Source of the DNA: Paenimyroides aestuarii
GTDB lineage: Bacteria > Bacteroidota > Bacteroidia > Flavobacteriales > Flavobacteriaceae
Assembly (NCBI RefSeq): GCF_024628805.1
Contig: NZ_CP102382.1
Span: 558,001-622,000, forward strand
Length of the DNA stretch: 64,000 nucleotides
Reading direction: 5' to 3'
Position numbers and translations under genes: made by a program. The notes under the pieces were generated by a model. That model saw only the letters and a list, made by a program, of their open reading frames with translations, was not told where the DNA came from and ran no database searches. This document shows positions 46,064 through 53,667 of the stretch, piece after piece (position 1 is the stretch's first letter; each line of letters begins with the position of its first letter).

Positions 46064-46403
46064 ATTGGGATAATTTATTCAAAAATACGTTGCAAAAAGT
46101 TATAAAATAGCAGTTCTTTTTATTTTAACATCTTTAGCAATATGAAATTATAGTTGTTGGGAAAAACTTTTTGAAAACTAAAAGAAAACAGCTGGGTTGC
46201 CTTTTGGGGATTGAATCCACAACAAAAAAAGCGATGCTTCATGAACTATATAACCAACATTATTTTAGTGAATTGCGTTTCAGTCAGCTTTTCTTGTTGA
46301 AAAAGTTAGGTCTTAAAAGGAACGTTTCTAAATAGAATACCACAAGTGATAATTACCCACATTATCCATAGTTTTGTAATGAAACGAATAAACAGTTCAA
46401 ATT
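46064..46403. other. Intergenic region upstream of the CDGSH gene
   Basis: About 340 bp between divergent genes. It contains a TAGTTTTG box at 46369-46376 on the plus strand (-7 of the CDGSH gene) and TATTTTTG on the minus strand about 20 bp before the DUF3050 start. A short open frame at about 46137-46334 lacks a start codon and is not called. Confidence 0.5.
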
Positions 46404-46628
46404 ATGGCACAAACAAAACTTACCATTAACGACAATGGATCGGTTAAAATTGAAGGAGATTTTGAAATAGTAGATAAAAACGGGAATGCTTACGGATTGC
46501 AAGGCAGAACGATAGTTTCAATTTGCCGCTGTGGATTATCTAAAAACAAACCTTTTTGCGACGGAGCACACAAAGGGCATTTTGAGCACAATGCCATTGC
46601 TTTTGATTTGCCGCCTAAAAAGGTGTAA
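46404..46628 (+). CDS. CDGSH iron-sulfur protein
   Basis: A 74-residue single-CDGSH protein. CRCGLSKNKPFCDGAH provides the three Cys and one His that hold a labile [2Fe-2S] cluster as in mitoNEET. No membrane anchor or signal peptide. Role in electron or cluster transfer is inferred from the family. Monocistronic, with its own TAGTTTTG box and a following hairpin. Confidence 0.92.
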   Translation: MAQTKLTINDNGSVKIEGDFEIVDKNGNAYGLQGRTIVSICRCGLSKNKPFCDGAHKGHFEHNAIAFDLPPKKV

Positions 46629-46652
46629 CAACAATGAGTATTTTATTATAAA

Positions 46653-46682
46653 ACAGCCTCAATACGTATGTAAAGAGGCTGT
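46653..46682 (+). terminator. Hairpin, copy 1 of the RHS-array element
   Basis: ACAGCCTC / GAGGCTGT stem with a 14-nt loop (AATACGTATGTAAA), then TGTGTTTTT. It can end the CDGSH transcript. Nearly identical hairpins are at 48647-48676 and 51175-51204 in the RHS region. Confidence 0.8.
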
Positions 46683-46928
46683 TGTGTTTTTAAAGGCACG
46701 GATTGCAAATCCGCGCCATCGGGGTTTTTTAGAGTTTTTTCCTGATACTAATACCATTTTTTTATCAGTTTTACCGTCATTTACAGTGTGAAGAAACTTT
46801 CCATATATATTAAAATAGTCTGTATTTGGTCCCGCCTGCATTCCATCAGGGTCAACAAAGAATATCGGATTGTTCTAAGCATAATTATACGGTGTCCATC
46901 TTCGTGAGTCCTCCGCCAGTGGAGAAAT
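46659..46928 (-). pseudogene. RHS toxin C-terminal remnant (module A)
   Basis: Reads PLAEDSRRWTPYNYA, stop (TAG at 46875-46877), NNPIFFVDPDGMQAG, which is the RHS core junction of its neighbours except for the nonsense codon in place of the Cys/Tyr codon. After it comes a ~55-residue variable tip (NTDYFNIYGKFLHTVNDG...) that ends within the hairpin element. Everything upstream of PLAE is missing. A decayed toxin tip; no matching immunity gene remains downstream. Confidence 0.85.
46695..46717. repeat. GGCACG...CGCGCC boundary palindrome
   Basis: GGCACGGATT-GCA-AATCCGCGCC, a short dyad directly after hairpin copy 1. A related GCACGGGCA..TGCCCGCGCC dyad follows hairpin copy 3 at 51228-51247, so the same composite element occurs at both ends of the RHS array. 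Confidence 0.6.
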
Positions 46929-46933
46929 TTATT

Positions 46934-47419
46934 TTATAATTCTATCTTTTTTTCTTTTAAATTGTACAAACACTGGAGTTCTATATAATCAACTATCATA
47001 GGAGTTTCATCTCTTATTTCTGGTTCAACTTTTTCCCATTCTAAATAATTTGGTATCCTAATTGCATCTCCCTTATCTACTTCATAATAGATGTTATAAG
47101 ACCCTGTCCTTGCTCTTAAAAGTTCTCTATTATCATTAATTTTAACATAAGGTATGTCATTTTGATAATCCTGTATATGTATATATACATACTTTAAGGA
47201 ATCTATAATTTCAATATTATCATAATATGACAATTTATATTCACTAATTAAAAAATTTCTATTATTAGATATTTTATATTCATTAATAAAAAAATTAACA
47301 ATATTAACTAGCTCATCATTTTTTTTTAGACGATCATTCTTCGTGCAACCAATATTGAAAAATAATATTGTACAGATAAGTAATTTATTTAACGTGTGTG
47401 TACGGATATACCCCATCAT
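46934..47419 (-). CDS. Lipoprotein, candidate immunity protein for RHS module B
   Basis: A 161-residue lipoprotein: lipobox FNIGC puts Cys25 at the mature N-terminus. The rest is Asn/Ile/Tyr-rich and beta-like, with no known domain. Its start lies 35 bp inside the 3' end of the RHS module B gene, the usual arrangement of toxin followed by immunity. An envelope-anchored immunity protein would fit a toxin that acts in or passes through the periplasm. Low GC, lower than neighbouring housekeeping genes. Confidence 0.6.
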   Translation of the reverse strand: MMGYIRTHTLNKLLICTILFFNIGCTKNDRLKKNDELVNIVNFFINEYKISNNRNFLISEYKLSYYDNIEIIDSLKYVYIHIQDYQNDIPYVKINDNRELLRARTGSYNIYYEVDKGDAIRIPNYLEWEKVEPEIRDETPMIVDYIELQCLYNLKEKKIEL

Positions 47420-48620
47420 ATTTTACTTTGTAATTAGCTCCTTTCGGTCTTATAAAAAAATTAATTTTTGGATCAACAATTTTTGTATTTTCTTTTAAAT
47501 CTCTGGCAAAAACTCCATCTCCTTTTTTAGCATCTTGATTCACTAATCTTGATTTTTTATGATATGATGAAGGCCAATCTGCTATCAATCCATTTTTGAA
47601 TTTTGGGTGATTGTGTTCATGGGAACTAATTTTCATTCCTATATTTGAATAGATATTAGACATATCATTAAAAAAGTAATGAGCGGCATATCCAACCGAC
47701 AGTCCATCATTAAAATATCTACCTGTGTTACCCATAGCAGTAGATATATATTGCCCATTTTGGCTAATTGTCATATATTCCCATTCTATATTTGAATTTT
47801 GTGCAATTTTATCAAATAGTTTATCCCCTTTTTTAAAATTATTAGTTTTTAGTTCATTTATTGGTATATCTCCTTTCTTTGTTTCAGTATGTTGAAAATC
47901 TTTTTTAAAACTACCATTATCACCATATTTATATTCATCTTTTATTGTCCCTTTATTATCAACAAATTGAACAATATCATCCCCGGCTTTTGTTTCTATA
48001 TCTACATTTCCAGTATCTACATTTATTTTAATTATATCATCTAAATCATTCAATTGAGAATTTGAAACCGCTTGCATTCCATCAGGATCAACAAAATAAA
48101 TAGGGTTGTTACAAGCATAGTTATAAGGTGTCCATCTTCTTGAATTCTCCGCCAGCGGATCTACATTCAACCATCTACCAATAGCAGCATCGTAATTACG
48201 TGCACCAAAATCGTATAAATCTAATCCTAATTCATCGTTTAACTCTTTACCGCCGTAAGCATATTTATATTTGTTTACAATGCTGTAATCAGGTAAATCG
48301 TCTCCTTTTTGTTTTAAACCAAAAGGATAATAATCGCTTTTTTCAATAATCTCGCTTACTTGTATAATCCCGTCTTTTGCATATTCCAACGTAGGGTGGT
48401 TTCTAAAACCATCACGGTATGTTAAACGTACGTTTCCTAAATGATCTTTGTATTGATAGGTATAAAGGTATTGATTATTTTCAAATTCTACATAACCTTC
48501 CGTATGCGGAAAAAATTTTAACGCATTATCTACATACTGGAATCCGTTAACATAATCGGTAGTTACTAACGCATCACCGCTGGGTTGTACTTGCTTTTTT
48601 TGATCGTGTGCCTGTGGCAT
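47385..48620 (-). CDS. RHS core fragment with JAB-like toxin tip (module B)
   Basis: A 411-residue product from ATG 48620 (the open frame extends 12 codons further through a hairpin, with TTG). Residues ~1-160 are the end of an RHS repeat core: DHLGNVRLTYRDG, SDYYPFGLKQ, YAYGGKELNDELGLDLYDFG and ARNYDAAIGRWLNVDPLAE, ending at VDPDGMQ, the usual core/toxin junction. The variable ~240-residue tip has HEHNHP (about residue 335) and a following WPSS...D, resembling the HxHP...S..D metal site of JAB/JAMM metallopeptidase toxins. It lacks the thousand or more residues of a normal RHS protein and any signal peptide, so it is a displaced C-terminal module. Confidence 0.8.
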   Translation of the reverse strand: MPQAHDQKKQVQPSGDALVTTDYVNGFQYVDNALKFFPHTEGYVEFENNQYLYTYQYKDHLGNVRLTYRDGFRNHPTLEYAKDGIIQVSEIIEKSDYYPFGLKQKGDDLPDYSIVNKYKYAYGGKELNDELGLDLYDFGARNYDAAIGRWLNVDPLAENSRRWTPYNYACNNPIYFVDPDGMQAVSNSQLNDLDDIIKINVDTGNVDIETKAGDDIVQFVDNKGTIKDEYKYGDNGSFKKDFQHTETKKGDIPINELKTNNFKKGDKLFDKIAQNSNIEWEYMTISQNGQYISTAMGNTGRYFNDGLSVGYAAHYFFNDMSNIYSNIGMKISSHEHNHPKFKNGLIADWPSSYHKKSRLVNQDAKKGDGVFARDLKENTKIVDPKINFFIRPKGANYKVKYDGVYPYTHVK

Positions 48621-48646
48621 AGCAACAGTAAGTGTTTTATAACAAA

Positions 48647-48676
48647 GCAGCCTCAATACGTTTGTAAAGAGGCTGT
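48647..48676 (+). repeat. Hairpin, copy 2 of the RHS-array element
   Basis: GCAGCCTC / GAGGCTGT with loop AATACGTTTGTAAA, between module B and the immunity gene of module C. Copies at 46653 and 51175 differ by only a few bases. Confidence 0.8.
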
Positions 48677-48683
48677 TGTTTGT

Positions 48684-49157
48684 TTATTGTTGCTCAAAGT
48701 CGTGAGACTTTGCGTAGCTGGGTTTATTTTCTGTTTCTAATTCGTTCTTCCGTGCGAAATACATCCTCTCATCATTTTCGTTTTTTTCTATTATAAGTTT
48801 TACATAAGCTTCTTTATCATAACACAATTCATAATACCCAAAAATAGCTTGGATAAAAGGGTAAACACTCTCTTCTTTTTCAACTAATCTATAGTGCCAA
48901 TTTGAATTTATTTTGCTATCTATAATATCAAATAGTTGACAAGGATAAGTAGCAATAAACCCTCCATCATCTATTAAGTAGGCTTGATAAGTCTTAAAGA
49001 TGATTATTCCCATTACAAAATATTCTTTATTAACCTCAATTTCATATTCTGCTATTTCAGACACCCCAAATCTTCCAAAAAACTCTTTATTAGTAATCAA
49101 CTCATATTCATATGGACGTAAGTCTATTCCTCTATTTTTTACACAACGTACTTTCAT
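48684..49157 (-). CDS. Candidate immunity protein for RHS module C
   Basis: A 157-residue cytoplasmic protein without known domain. N-terminus MKVRCVKNRGIDLRPYEYEL, with EIEVNKEYFVMGIIIFKTYQ and YLIDDGGFIATYPCQLFDI in the middle, a beta-rich layout I recall from immunity proteins of polymorphic toxins. It starts 3 bp after the stop of toxin tip C. The last 13 codons overlap a small inverted repeat (AAAGTC-GTGA-GACTTT), so the C-terminus may have been altered by recombination. Confidence 0.6.
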   Translation of the reverse strand: MKVRCVKNRGIDLRPYEYELITNKEFFGRFGVSEIAEYEIEVNKEYFVMGIIIFKTYQAYLIDDGGFIATYPCQLFDIIDSKINSNWHYRLVEKEESVYPFIQAIFGYYELCYDKEAYVKLIIEKNENDERMYFARKNELETENKPSYAKSHDFEQQ

Positions 49158-49160
49158 AAT

Positions 49161-49705
49161 TTATTTAAATTTAAAATCATCGACATATTTAATAATTCCT
49201 TTTTCGAATTTTGCTACATAATGTATTACTGTCTTTTTTCCTGTTGAACTTGTATGAACATAATGCATTTTACTCCAACCTGACCAACGCGAATCTTTCA
49301 ATCCATGAATAATAACTTTCCCAGCAGATGGATTTGACATAGCTTCTTTCATAGCTAATTGTTCTGAAAGATTTACAGCTGTAGTTCTTCCTGTTGTACC
49401 TCTTCCTAACGGCACAAGAAAACTACTACCTCTCACAACTAAAAGCTCCGAAGCTATTGCTGGTGCCAAAATGAACCTACACCACCAATATAAGCATACA
49501 TTGTTTCTTTGGCTCTGGCAGTTTCACCAGTTGCATTTACCCAACCATTGTATGCAAATTTAAAGTTACCTACAAACCCTAAATCACTTTTACGATGATA
49601 ATCTACATTTTTTATACCTGCTGCATTTAACTCTTTTATACTATTGTAAGTATCTATAGAACCATCGTTATTGTGTACCGAAAAAACATTTGTTGGGTTA
49701 TAGTA
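49161..49705 (-). pseudogene. Frameshifted RHS toxin tip without core (module C)
   Basis: Begins directly after the stop of the module D immunity gene with a segment (PTNVFSVHNNDGSID, VNATGETARAKETMYAYIGGV) that matches residues of the module D tip (PTDVYEVHNNDGSID). A one-base indel near 49475 then shifts the frame; in the next frame it continues LAPAIASELLVVRG to the tip LSEQLAMKEAMSNP...KMHYVH...IHYVAKF...DDFKFK. No RHS core at all. The last 70 residues are a compact toxin-like domain I have seen at the end of other RHS proteins. Expressed, if at all, only as the 102-residue 3' part. Confidence 0.8.
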
Positions 49706-49996
49706 TCAAAATGCGGTTTTATTTTCTATACTAATAGCTTTAAAAATTACTGCAAGCCTTTTTAAGTCATACATAATTGCATCATCAGAATTGATAAGTC
49801 TTTTAATCTCTTCCAAATCATCAGATAATTGACCTAATGTCAAATCTGTAGGTTTCTCATATGGATTATATAATTCATCATCTAATATATTCCAATAATA
49901 ATCATTGCTAATTTCTATTTCTTCTCCACTATTTTCTTTTAATTTTGATAAAAGAAAAATTGTAACTTTTTGTAGTTCATCAATATTTATTTTCAT
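49706..49996 (-). CDS. Candidate immunity protein for RHS module D
   Basis: A 96-residue acidic protein (MKINIDELQKVTIFLLSKLK, then GEEIEISNDYYWNI, DLTLGQLSDDLEEIKRL). ATG 49996 is preferred because GGGGGAT lies just upstream; an ATG 12 bp earlier also exists. It begins at the stop of the module D RHS fragment. Size, acidity and place are as expected for the immunity partner. Similar small proteins next to RHS toxins are familiar in flavobacteria. Its stop abuts the start of decayed module C. Confidence 0.65.
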   Translation of the reverse strand: MKINIDELQKVTIFLLSKLKENSGEEIEISNDYYWNILDDELYNPYEKPTDLTLGQLSDDLEEIKRLINSDDAIMYDLKRLAVIFKAISIENKTAF

Positions 49997-49997
49997 A

Positions 49998-51167
49998 TTA
50001 TCCCCCATTAATTATTTTTTGAATATTATTTCTAAATGTTTGTATTTCATGGTTTAAATGATTTATTCTTGATTGAATAATCTGTTGTCTTACAGCATCA
50101 TTTGGTGCGTTTTTTAAAAATCCTTTATTATCAAATTTCATAGGATTTTTCATATATTCAAGAAGCTTTGTTTGATGTTTTGCTATTTGGTTTTCATAGG
50201 ATGCAATAGATTTTAATTTAGAAGCACTTAAAGCAGTTGTACCTACTCTAGCAGCTAAAAATTCAGCTGCAATCTCAGGTATAACAACCGAAGCTACACC
50301 ACCAATATAAGCATACATAGTTTCTTTGGCAGCAGCTGTTCTTCCTGTTGCATTTACCCAACCGTCATAAGCTTCTTTTAAATTACCTACAAAACCTTTG
50401 TCATTTTTATATTGTCGGTTAACATTTTTGATCCCAGCTTTGTTTAATTCAATGGTGCTGTTGTATATATCAATACTTCCATCATTATTATGAACTTCAT
50501 ATACATCTGTTGGGTCGCCATCCCATTTAGTACTTACTTTTTCATACGCATTGTAACTGCCTTTTTTATTATTGTCCGGAAAAACTTTCCAGGTTGTAAG
50601 TATACCGCCGTCTTCTTCTACTTGTCCAGAAAAATCTGAACTTTGGAACATTGTACTAAAAGCCACACCCGCATTTAGTAAATCTCTGCCATAACTATCC
50701 ATTGGTCTGCTTTGCATTCCATCAGGGTCAACGAAATAAATAGGGTTGTTATACGCATAGTTATACGGTGTCCATCTTCTCGAATTCTCTGCTAACGGGT
50801 CAATGTTCAACCATCTACCAATAGCCGCATCGTAATTACGTGCGCCAAAATCGTATAAATCTAGCCCTAATTCATCGTTTAACTCTTTACCGCCGTAAGC
50901 GTATTTATATTTGTTTACAATGCTGTAATCAGGTAAATCGTCTCCTTTTTGTTTTAAACCAAAAGGATAATAATCGCTTTTTTCAATAATCTCGCTTACT
51001 TGTATAACACCGTCTTTTGCATATTCTAATGTAGGGTGGTTTCTAAAACCATCACGGTATGTTAAACGTACGTTTCCTAAATGGTCTTTGTAAATATAGT
51101 GATAAACATAATTACCACCATTGTTTTTAACATAGCCCTCAGCATGGGGAAAGGTTTGTAACGTTTT
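49998..51167 (-). pseudogene. 5'-truncated RHS core with toxin tip (module D)
   Basis: An open frame of 389 codons after an in-frame TAA at 51168-51170, with no plausible start until a TTG at 50810. It encodes the last ~150 residues of an RHS core (FPHAEGYVKNNGGN, YKDHLGNVRLTYRDGF, ARNYDAAIGRWLNIDPLAEN, FVDPDGMQ) almost identical to module B, followed by a ~240-residue variable tip. The tip has DPTDVYEVHNNDGSIDIYN and ends in a helical basic region (ENQIAKHQTKLLEYMKNP, QSRINHLNHEIQTFRNN). Without its 5' part it is likely not made unless it recombines onto a full RHS gene. Confidence 0.8.
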
Positions 51168-51174
51168 TTATAAT

Positions 51175-51204
51175 ACAGCCTCCATGCGTTTGTAAAGAGG
51201 CTGT
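51175..51204 (+). repeat. Hairpin, copy 3 of the RHS-array element
   Basis: ACAGCCTC / GAGGCTGT with loop CATGCGTTTGTAAA followed by TTGGTTTTT. It marks the right end of the RHS array. Confidence 0.8.
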
Positions 51205-51227
51205 TGGTTTTTATTTATTGCTTATTG

Positions 51228-51247
51228 CACGGGCAAGATGCCCGCGC
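51228..51247. repeat. GCACGGGCA..TGCCCGCGCC palindrome
   Basis: Dyad right after hairpin copy 3, similar in outline (GCACG...CGCGCC) to 46695-46717 after copy 1. Confidence 0.55.
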
Positions 51248-51255
51248 CAGCGTGG

Positions 51256-51320
51256 TGTCATTCTGAACGCAACGAAGTGAAGTGAAGAATCTCAAAGATT
51301 CCTCCTTCGTCGGAATGACA
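51256..51320. repeat. TGTCATTC...GAATGACA intergenic repeat
   Basis: Perfect 8-bp arms TGTCATTC (51256-51263) and GAATGACA (51313-51320) around AACGAAGTGA and AAGAATCTC / GATTCCTCC. I recall this type ('GTCATTCTGAACG..GTGAAGAATCTC') as a common dispersed element in Bacteroidota. It lies between the RHS array and the alcohol dehydrogenase stop. Confidence 0.65.
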
Positions 51321-53394: not shown

Positions 53395-53667
53395 ATGGAT
53401 TATAAAGATAATATATTTTATTTGAGCACAAAGCTCAATTTTCCTAGCGTACAAAACCTGAAAAATATTTGGCTTAAAACGTTAAGAAAGTTTATACTCC
53501 AAAAAAACGGTACCGTTCAGCAAGCTACTATTAGCAAAAGCGTTTGTAAAGAATGCGATTTGGAAGCGCTTCGCGTGGTTAAAAAATTACGACTGAATCC
53601 CATCTTAATTAATGGAAAACCAGAACGTGTTCGGTTCAGAATTCCTATTCGATTGGCTTTAGAATAG
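53395..53667 (+). CDS. Orphan TonB C-terminal domain fragment
   Basis: A 90-residue ORF whose last ~55 residues are a TonB C-terminal domain: FILQKNGTVQQATISKS (compare 'FvvekdGsvs'), CDLEALRVVKKL and NGKPERVRFRIPIRLAL, the typical end strand. There is no transmembrane anchor or proline-rich spacer, so it cannot work as an ordinary energy transducer. The opposite-strand promoter lies over its first codons. I think it is a 5'-truncated remnant; a small cytoplasmic or accessory form is possible. Confidence 0.55.
   Translation: MDYKDNIFYLSTKLNFPSVQNLKNIWLKTLRKFILQKNGTVQQATISKSVCKECDLEALRVVKKLRLNPILINGKPERVRFRIPIRLALE
53403..53431 (-). promoter_or_regulatory. Promoter of the secreted-protein gene
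   Basis: On the minus strand TTG (53431-53429), 18 bp, TATCTTTA (53410-53403), 22 bp before ATG 53380. It lies inside the 5' part of the opposite TonB-like ORF, which suggests that part is not coding. Confidence 0.5.

Follow-up and report, generated by a model that had tools for sequence, protein, structure and literature searches.

Displaced C-terminal tips of RHS proteins are usually found behind a working RHS gene, and a genome that carries four arrays of such tips, and in which no matching full-length gene (head) was found, raises the question why they are kept. We address this question for array 1 of Paenimyroides aestuarii (Flavobacteriales), which is located in a stretch of 64,000 nucleotides (nt) of contig NZ_CP102382.1 (assembly GCF_024628805.1; G000:C1:558001-622000), in the following called the window. 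The source genome (G000) consists of a single contig of 2,961,016 bases. Array 1 is probably a headless pool of displaced RHS C-terminal cassettes that has been shaped by homologous recombination.

Array 1 is composed of four RHS C-terminal modules, which are located head to tail on the minus strand in the order D, C, B, and A (Table 1). In D and B, a core fragment of one RHS clade precedes the variable tip; both fragments contain the TIGR03696 domain (59.4 and 60.4 bits, respectively; cut-off 32.5), and the open frame of D comprises 389 residues, with no obvious start codon in its core part. The tip of B passes the threshold of PF15659 (Toxin-JAB1) narrowly, with 22.1 bits against a cut-off of 21. 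Module C no longer has a core; its first part (49463-49699), which shares 71% identity with the pre-toxin region of D, ends in a stop, and the remainder (49161-49469) lies in a different frame, as an open reading frame (ORF) of 102 residues. Module A retains 31 residues of the core junction. Directly behind the tips of D, C, and B, that is in three of the four modules, a small ORF is present. This anatomy had been described in an earlier annotation made from the letters of the window (the sequence-only reading), and coordinates, frames, family assignments, the frameshift in C, the stop codon in A, and the three small ORFs were all recovered, as was the lack of a full-length RHS gene in the window. 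A search of solved structures with pieces of the tips of D, B, and C and with the ORF of C gave nothing meaningful.

The repeat shared by D and B stops at the DPxG junction, which marks a sharp switch from a shared core to unrelated tips, as the sequence-only reading had proposed. Over 300 nt, D and B agree by 93.3% at the ends of their cores, and at the protein level the two cores are 89% identical. In the 300 nt beyond the core, 73.6% of the gap-free columns agree, slightly above the 66-72% of five shuffles, and the two tips give no protein match at an E value of 1e-4. Altogether, three core pairs are 88-93% identical, and their tips are at or near the shuffled level.

At least four such arrays are present in G000, as determined by DNA and protein searches with the core and by fetching the surrounding stretches. 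The modules of array 2 share 46-91% identity with the core of B and are thus looser than those of array 1; one tip of array 2 matches Peptidase_M91 (69.5 bits; cut-off 25), and a D-type fragment is also found there (50% identity over 40 residues, E 2.1e-4). The core of arrays 3 and 4 is more distant, matching at 50-56% over short stretches. Array 3 contains a tandem copy of a module, with identical tips and 99.5% identical ORFs, and a module of array 2 and one of array 4, which have different cores, are related in both tip (30%) and neighbour ORF (46%). The only long RHS gene found in G000 (407.1-413.5 kb; 2,132 residues) contains SpvB, FG-GAP, and RHS repeat domains; it was considered as head of array 1 and rejected, its core being distant (39% identity over about 50 residues).

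The ORFs behind D, C, and B are designated candidate immunity genes on account of their position; none of them has a Pfam or NCBIfam match reaching the cut-off. By eye, 11 of 15 neighbour ORFs in arrays 1-4 have a lipoprotein-type start, which would put immunity in the cell envelope. In 16 modules read by hand, an open tip was accompanied by an ORF in 11 cases, an ORF occurred without an open tip in three and neither in two, and an open tip without an ORF was not encountered. Such counts bear on the possibility that the arrays are a defensive store in which only the immunity genes matter, giving protection against the RHS toxins of relatives, and in which the tips are dead weight. The ORF of C and two others, which are intact beside a broken or absent tip, would be accounted for in this way, as would the lack of open tips without an ORF and the long RHS frame with a homologous tip in a relative (see below), and Gilliamella apicola, which possesses orphan domains only, has been interpreted likewise (PMC8125069). 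On the other hand, 11 of the 16 tips are still open, and the ratio of nonsynonymous to synonymous substitutions (dN/dS), 0.17-0.53 in tips plus ORFs of three pairs, remains below 1 in the tips alone (0.23-0.43), although the period covered may include life on a head. The function of the ORFs is moreover deduced from position, and the numbers are small. We consider the defensive store a serious possibility that falls somewhat short of being probable. It and a cassette reservoir are not mutually exclusive; the hand counts, small as they are, lean towards the former.

Many boundaries between the modules are marked by a 28-nt hairpin, which usually follows a neighbour ORF or remnant and precedes the next piece of core. 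A scan with the pattern CAGCCTC-N14-GAGGCTG, in which two positions of the loop were fixed and one mismatch was tolerated, detected it at 20 places in G000, compared to none with the reversed control, and 17 of the 20 copies fall into the four arrays (about 24 kb, 0.8% of the genome), whose edges were partly drawn at hairpins. In array 1, three of the five module boundaries carry the hairpin. It is missing between the ORF of D and module C and between the ORF of B and module A, where deletions appear to have fused the modules, and the copy upstream of D probably marks where an upstream module or head gene, now lost, once ended. The hairpin occurs in five genomes, namely G000, its sister species G196, G299, Paenimyroides baculatum, and Paenimyroides ummariense; a scan of nine further stretches, eight from other genomes and the one with the long RHS gene from G000, did not detect it. 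In the relatives G031 and G040, different repeats mark the array boundaries, which suggests that such repeats stem from the terminator of the operon that founded the arrays in each lineage. Column counts were made on 44 copies, a 45th row (L114) having been dropped as unrelated. In the stem, the seven inner pairs contain 16 deviating cells, 10 of which still pair, one by a double change; in the loop, for which the scan required TTTAC, the nine positions left free by the scan show little variation, with two exceptions. With 14 nt, the loop exceeds the limit of the terminator scan.

Two hairpin copies outside the four arrays, at G000:C1:245685-245712 (L043) and G000:C1:1420348 (L154), lie beside possible relics of RHS modules, which include an ORF beginning like a joint of the second core type and an ORF whose end resembles that of a neighbour ORF in the array of G196. 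In window 46645-46674 (minus strand), hairpin loop and tail read TTTACA-N18-TATAAT, matching the E. coli-type promoter at 11 of 12 positions. This match is probably due to chance, because the bacterial group of the host uses another promoter type; promoter-like sites as a whole numbered 32, not above shuffles (mean 30.7).

Often, a repetitive extragenic palindromic (REP) sequence immediately precedes the hairpin. With up to two mismatches, this palindrome is present at 40 places, of which 13 are in the arrays, two are next to array 4, 16 form a cluster at 1803.8-1811.1 kb, and nine lie elsewhere. It flanks genes of which the one tested encodes a REP-associated tyrosine transposase (RAYT; NF047646, 105 bits, cut-off 80), so that the palindrome at the module ends resembles known REP-RAYT elements; in contrast to these, no RAYT gene was seen in array 1, and there is no sign of a RAYT moving cassettes. 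The cluster (L162, G000:C1:1803815-1811125) contains, besides its 16 REPs, several small genes and two 184-residue genes with nearly the same ends, one of which is the RAYT gene tested, and resembles another variable locus.

The sequence that follows the hairpin also recurs. Among 36 hairpins tested, 21 were followed by a match to the array 1 core and 15 were not. Behind six of the 36, the core begins after 15-21 nt at residue 582-585 of the P. baculatum frame, and this recurrent joint occurs in G000, G196, and G299 ahead of different tips. Behind two further hairpins the core begins at the same residues, but 53-57 nt on, and a second joint (residues 552-556) is common to B and module 4 of array 2. 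Jackson et al. (2009; PMC2935791) proposed that circles are excised and inserted by core homology; a recurrent joint would be the expected trace of this model, because each inserted circle should carry a copy of it.

A conserved structure at module boundaries could alternatively be the active recombination site of a site-specific cassette system, integron-like or driven by a REP transposase. Such a site is suggested by the nearly invariant loop in 44 copies from five genomes (TTTAC being constant by construction), by an exchange block that ends at the far edge of the hairpin (see below), and by the palindromes of the RAYT that adjoin it. The box consensus of attC-type sites is RYYYAAC and GTTRRRY, and searching the flanks of the 17 array hairpins revealed no pair of boxes and one lone RYYYAAC. 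Since, moreover, 10 of 16 changed stem cells still pair, as in a possible terminator, and G031 and G040 have arrays with other boundary repeats, we regard site-specific recombination as highly unlikely.

The core of array 1 is matched in 22 of 59 related genomes (23 of 60 with its own). The relatives' loci described here were chosen as informative-looking and do not represent a random sample. The nearest named records by core are P. baculatum (85%) and an uncultured Flavobacterium (81%), both with long genes. On the P. baculatum contig, a 948-residue RHS frame near the contig edge is followed by two displaced modules, and homologues of both the tip (69%) and the neighbour ORF (64%) of module 5 of array 2 are found with the long frame of this species. 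Long frames with the RHS core are likewise followed by displaced modules in G040 (1,248 residues), G053 (1,145), G129 (1,190), G228 (1,187), G193 (3,566), and G038 (1,177); in G228 and G038 the junction pattern gave no hit, and the core was identified by separate core searches. The loci of relatives at which long RHS frames precede modules include L148, L149, L150, L151, L152, and L153. Arrays without a head in the fetched stretch are present in G031, G196, and G299, where the longest frames with a core match comprise 559 residues in G196 and 433 in G299, and in G031 one of 1,152 residues lies elsewhere. A search of 397 other genomes detected B-type tips (28-33% identity) in three, and in two of these the tip is part of a long frame (1,138 and 1,228 residues). 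In three long RHS frames, two from relatives and the one of G000 (one of the three being cut at a contig edge), PAAR gave no match. At L045, L148, and L152, the heads follow a frame with a YD-like tail (KEYKYNNKN in L148), and at some of these loci this frame is, by eye, itself preceded by a protein resembling those of the type IX secretion system, which possibly represents a conserved head operon.

Turnover of cassettes becomes visible in comparison with G196, which is 97% identical to G000 over 8.2 kb beside array 1. The upstream flank of array 2 is 97% identical to its G196 counterpart over 2,662 nt; inside the array, among the matches of at least 60 nt that were listed, agreement is confined to hairpins, joints, and core and extends at most about 15 nt past a junction. 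At array 4, both flanks agree by 95-96% and one orphan ORF region is common (91%), whereas by the same listing G196 has two modules absent from G000 and G000 has one absent from G196. The tips at the two matched loci thus differ. Furthermore, a G196 module is 93% identical over 1,447 nt to a module of P. ummariense. This block extends from a Gly-rich linker within the tip through neighbour ORF and hairpin to the far edge of the latter, with 22 of 28 bases agreeing in the hairpin, four of five in the T tail, and 10 of the next 27; the right arm of the hairpin is degraded in P. ummariense. In this pair, dS amounts to 0.116 in the neighbour ORF and to 1.49 in the core (68 codons compared), consistent with a recent exchange of the block.

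Array 1 itself bears marks of rearrangement. Over 399 nt, the CDGSH gene and the last hairpin of array 1 are 93.7% identical to G196:C1:1672931-1673327. In G196, this segment forms the downstream edge of the array that shares its upstream flank with array 2. The next stretch of G196, 1671375-1672759, is located at 1364614-1366000 in G000 (97%). The gene that lies beside array 1 in G000, which by sequence likeness we take to be ADH-like, is in G196 located next to a stretch of which 226 nt (84.5%) are found behind array 2 in G000. From the matches on the CDGSH and ADH sides it follows that either array 1 and its edge moved from the array 2 locus, or the arrays recombined with one another. Most simply, the rearrangement is placed in the G000 lineage, because in G299 the genes beside the DUF3050 gene are arranged as in G196. 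More than one event is needed, as is evident from the break at window base 46182. Two further breaks of synteny with G196 near array 1 are seen at window 46182-46291 and 53429-53500, so that the region was rearranged more than once.

Table 1 Features of array 1 (window coordinates) and location of the other arrays of the same genome (genome coordinates)
Feature	Position	Strand	Remarks
Module D	49998..51167	-	Core end 50712-51167, variable tip 49998-50711
Candidate immunity ORF of D	49706..50008	-	100 aa; overlaps the end of D
Module C	49161..49699	-	Tip only, no core; split over two frames
Candidate immunity ORF of C	48684..49157	-	157 aa; intact despite the broken tip
Module B	47385..48656	-	Core 48072-48656, JAB-like tip 47385-48071
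Candidate immunity ORF of B	46934..47419	-	161 aa; lipoprotein-like start by eye
Module A	46836..46928	-	Core-junction remnant; 84% identity over 31 residues; one in-frame TAG
Boundary hairpin upstream of D	51176..51203	-	Truncated core 15 nt later (recurrent joint); fold z -4.25
Boundary hairpin between ORF of C and B	48648..48675	-	RNA fold z -5.05
REP palindrome GCGCGGATTTGCAATCCGTGC	46696..46716	-	Repeat also flanks a REP-associated tyrosine transposase gene in the genome
Boundary hairpin at downstream end of array	46654..46681	-	Folded together with REP: z -7.52
CDGSH iron-sulphur protein gene	46404..46628	+	PF09360
Array 2	1341.3-1348.8 kb		No head in fetched stretch
Array 3	358.5-368.6 kb		No head in fetched stretch
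Array 4	275.2-277.0 kb		No head in fetched stretch

Several observations weigh against a cassette pool shaped by recombination. In G000, no full-length RHS gene with the array 1 core was detected, be it by RHS_repeat, by core DNA, or by core protein; the sequence-only reading had expected one elsewhere in the genome, onto which the cassettes could be swapped, and without it a reservoir or swap within the genome has no visible recipient. G196 has no array at the site of array 1, other genes (presumably recJ-like and asd-like) being located next to the DUF3050 gene, so that a module-by-module comparison of array 1 is not possible; the differences in content expected among relatives are seen in arrays 2 and 4, and array 1 has no G196 counterpart. 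The content of array 2 and its counterpart is not wholly different, as one tip of each shares 39% identity over the first 64 residues, and only one exchange block was found. Two of the four modules of array 1 are broken. The tip of D recurs in one of 397 other genomes, as a fragment with a stop, and the ORF of C has one weak match in the same set. Beside the three B-type tips elsewhere, no convincing homologue of the ORF of B was detected (nothing at E 1 in two genomes and weak 31-residue matches in one), one of these sites being covered by only 355 bases behind the tip. The reservation made above on the dN/dS values belongs here as well. What remains of the reservoir proposal is the set of displaced tips with neighbour ORFs, the differing content between sister species at two other arrays, the module 5 pair on the P. 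baculatum long frame, and the B-type tips on long frames of two other genomes.

Some of these points would equally fit plain decay, in which a former RHS locus has lost its head and is now eroding without present function: C is frameshifted, A is stopped, modules were apparently deleted in part at their boundaries, and the genome has yielded no head. Against decay, the tandem copy with identical tips in array 3, the differing cassettes at matched loci, the 93% cross-species block, and dN/dS values below 1 indicate that the system as a whole has been active recently, although this does not extend to array 1. We therefore consider decay fairly unlikely as the full explanation and favour the pool of recombining cassettes.

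Arrays of this kind are not new, contrary to the sequence-only reading. C-terminal displacement arrays were described in Enterobacteriaceae (Jackson et al. 2009; PMC2935791), and Rhs orphan arrays are reported from the bee-gut bacteria Snodgrassella and Gilliamella (PMC5727410, PMC8125069). The enterobacterial arrays resemble those described here in their dissociated tips lying head to tail, one-clade core fragments of variable length, sharp core/tip junction, and turnover between related genomes (PMC2935791). They differ in that here no intact head gene was found, a conserved boundary hairpin and REP are present, the host belongs to the Flavobacteriales, and array 2 mixes more divergent cores. 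The orphan rhs-CT/rhsI of Salmonella Typhimurium LT2 similarly consists of a tip without start and export signal beside an immunity gene (Koskiniemi et al. 2014; PMC3967940); its core homology to the main gene comprises 522 bp (95%), the main gene is adjacent, and evidence for fusion is given, whereas for array 1 no same-core main gene was found in the genome. An intact RHS gene at the 5' end of an array, which was not found here, is usual and not universal: G. apicola with orphan domains only is headless at the genome level (PMC8125069). The bee-gut hosts belong to another phylum, and the available passages on their arrays do not mention a boundary hairpin (PMC5727410, PMC8125069). Neither hairpin, palindrome, nor terminator is mentioned in PMC2935791, and among titles and abstract beginnings of the open-licence literature no description of a repeated boundary hairpin and recurring joint was found. 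Within these sources, arrays as such and the headless state are thus known, and the hairpin boundary, as the sequence-only reading had supposed, and the joint appear undescribed.

We envisage the following scheme for array 1. In a whole cassette, the 3' portion of an RHS core would be joined to a toxin tip and followed by a gene of immunity type, in many cases by a REP palindrome, and finally by the hairpin, which probably was the terminator of the old operon. Cassettes may be gained, copied, and lost through homologous recombination, in which the core pieces would serve as 5' homology arm and the hairpin with the joint to the next core piece as 3' arm. The full-length head gene with the array 1 core would have been lost in this lineage, and a rearrangement appears to have linked array 1 to what in the sister species is the downstream edge of the array 2 locus. 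The tips, lacking both a head and start codons, are probably silent. Through horizontal exchange with relatives, cassettes of the pool could nevertheless be joined to a head again, and the retained immunity genes may guard against these same relatives. A bolder version, which as a whole we hold to be unlikely, is that headless arrays swap toxin/immunity cassettes among themselves and across species without need of a full-length RHS gene, heads being visited only now and then, and that cassettes are two-sided, with the hairpin and the adjoining joint to truncated core acting as their functional 3' arm in exchange.

The four arrays of P. aestuarii, for which no matching head was found, thus pose the question whether such cassettes persist as a bank of immunity genes, as a pool shared by the community, or as loci in decay. 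The conserved hairpin and the recurring joint are countable marks, by which exchange events in strain collections could be placed within a few bases.

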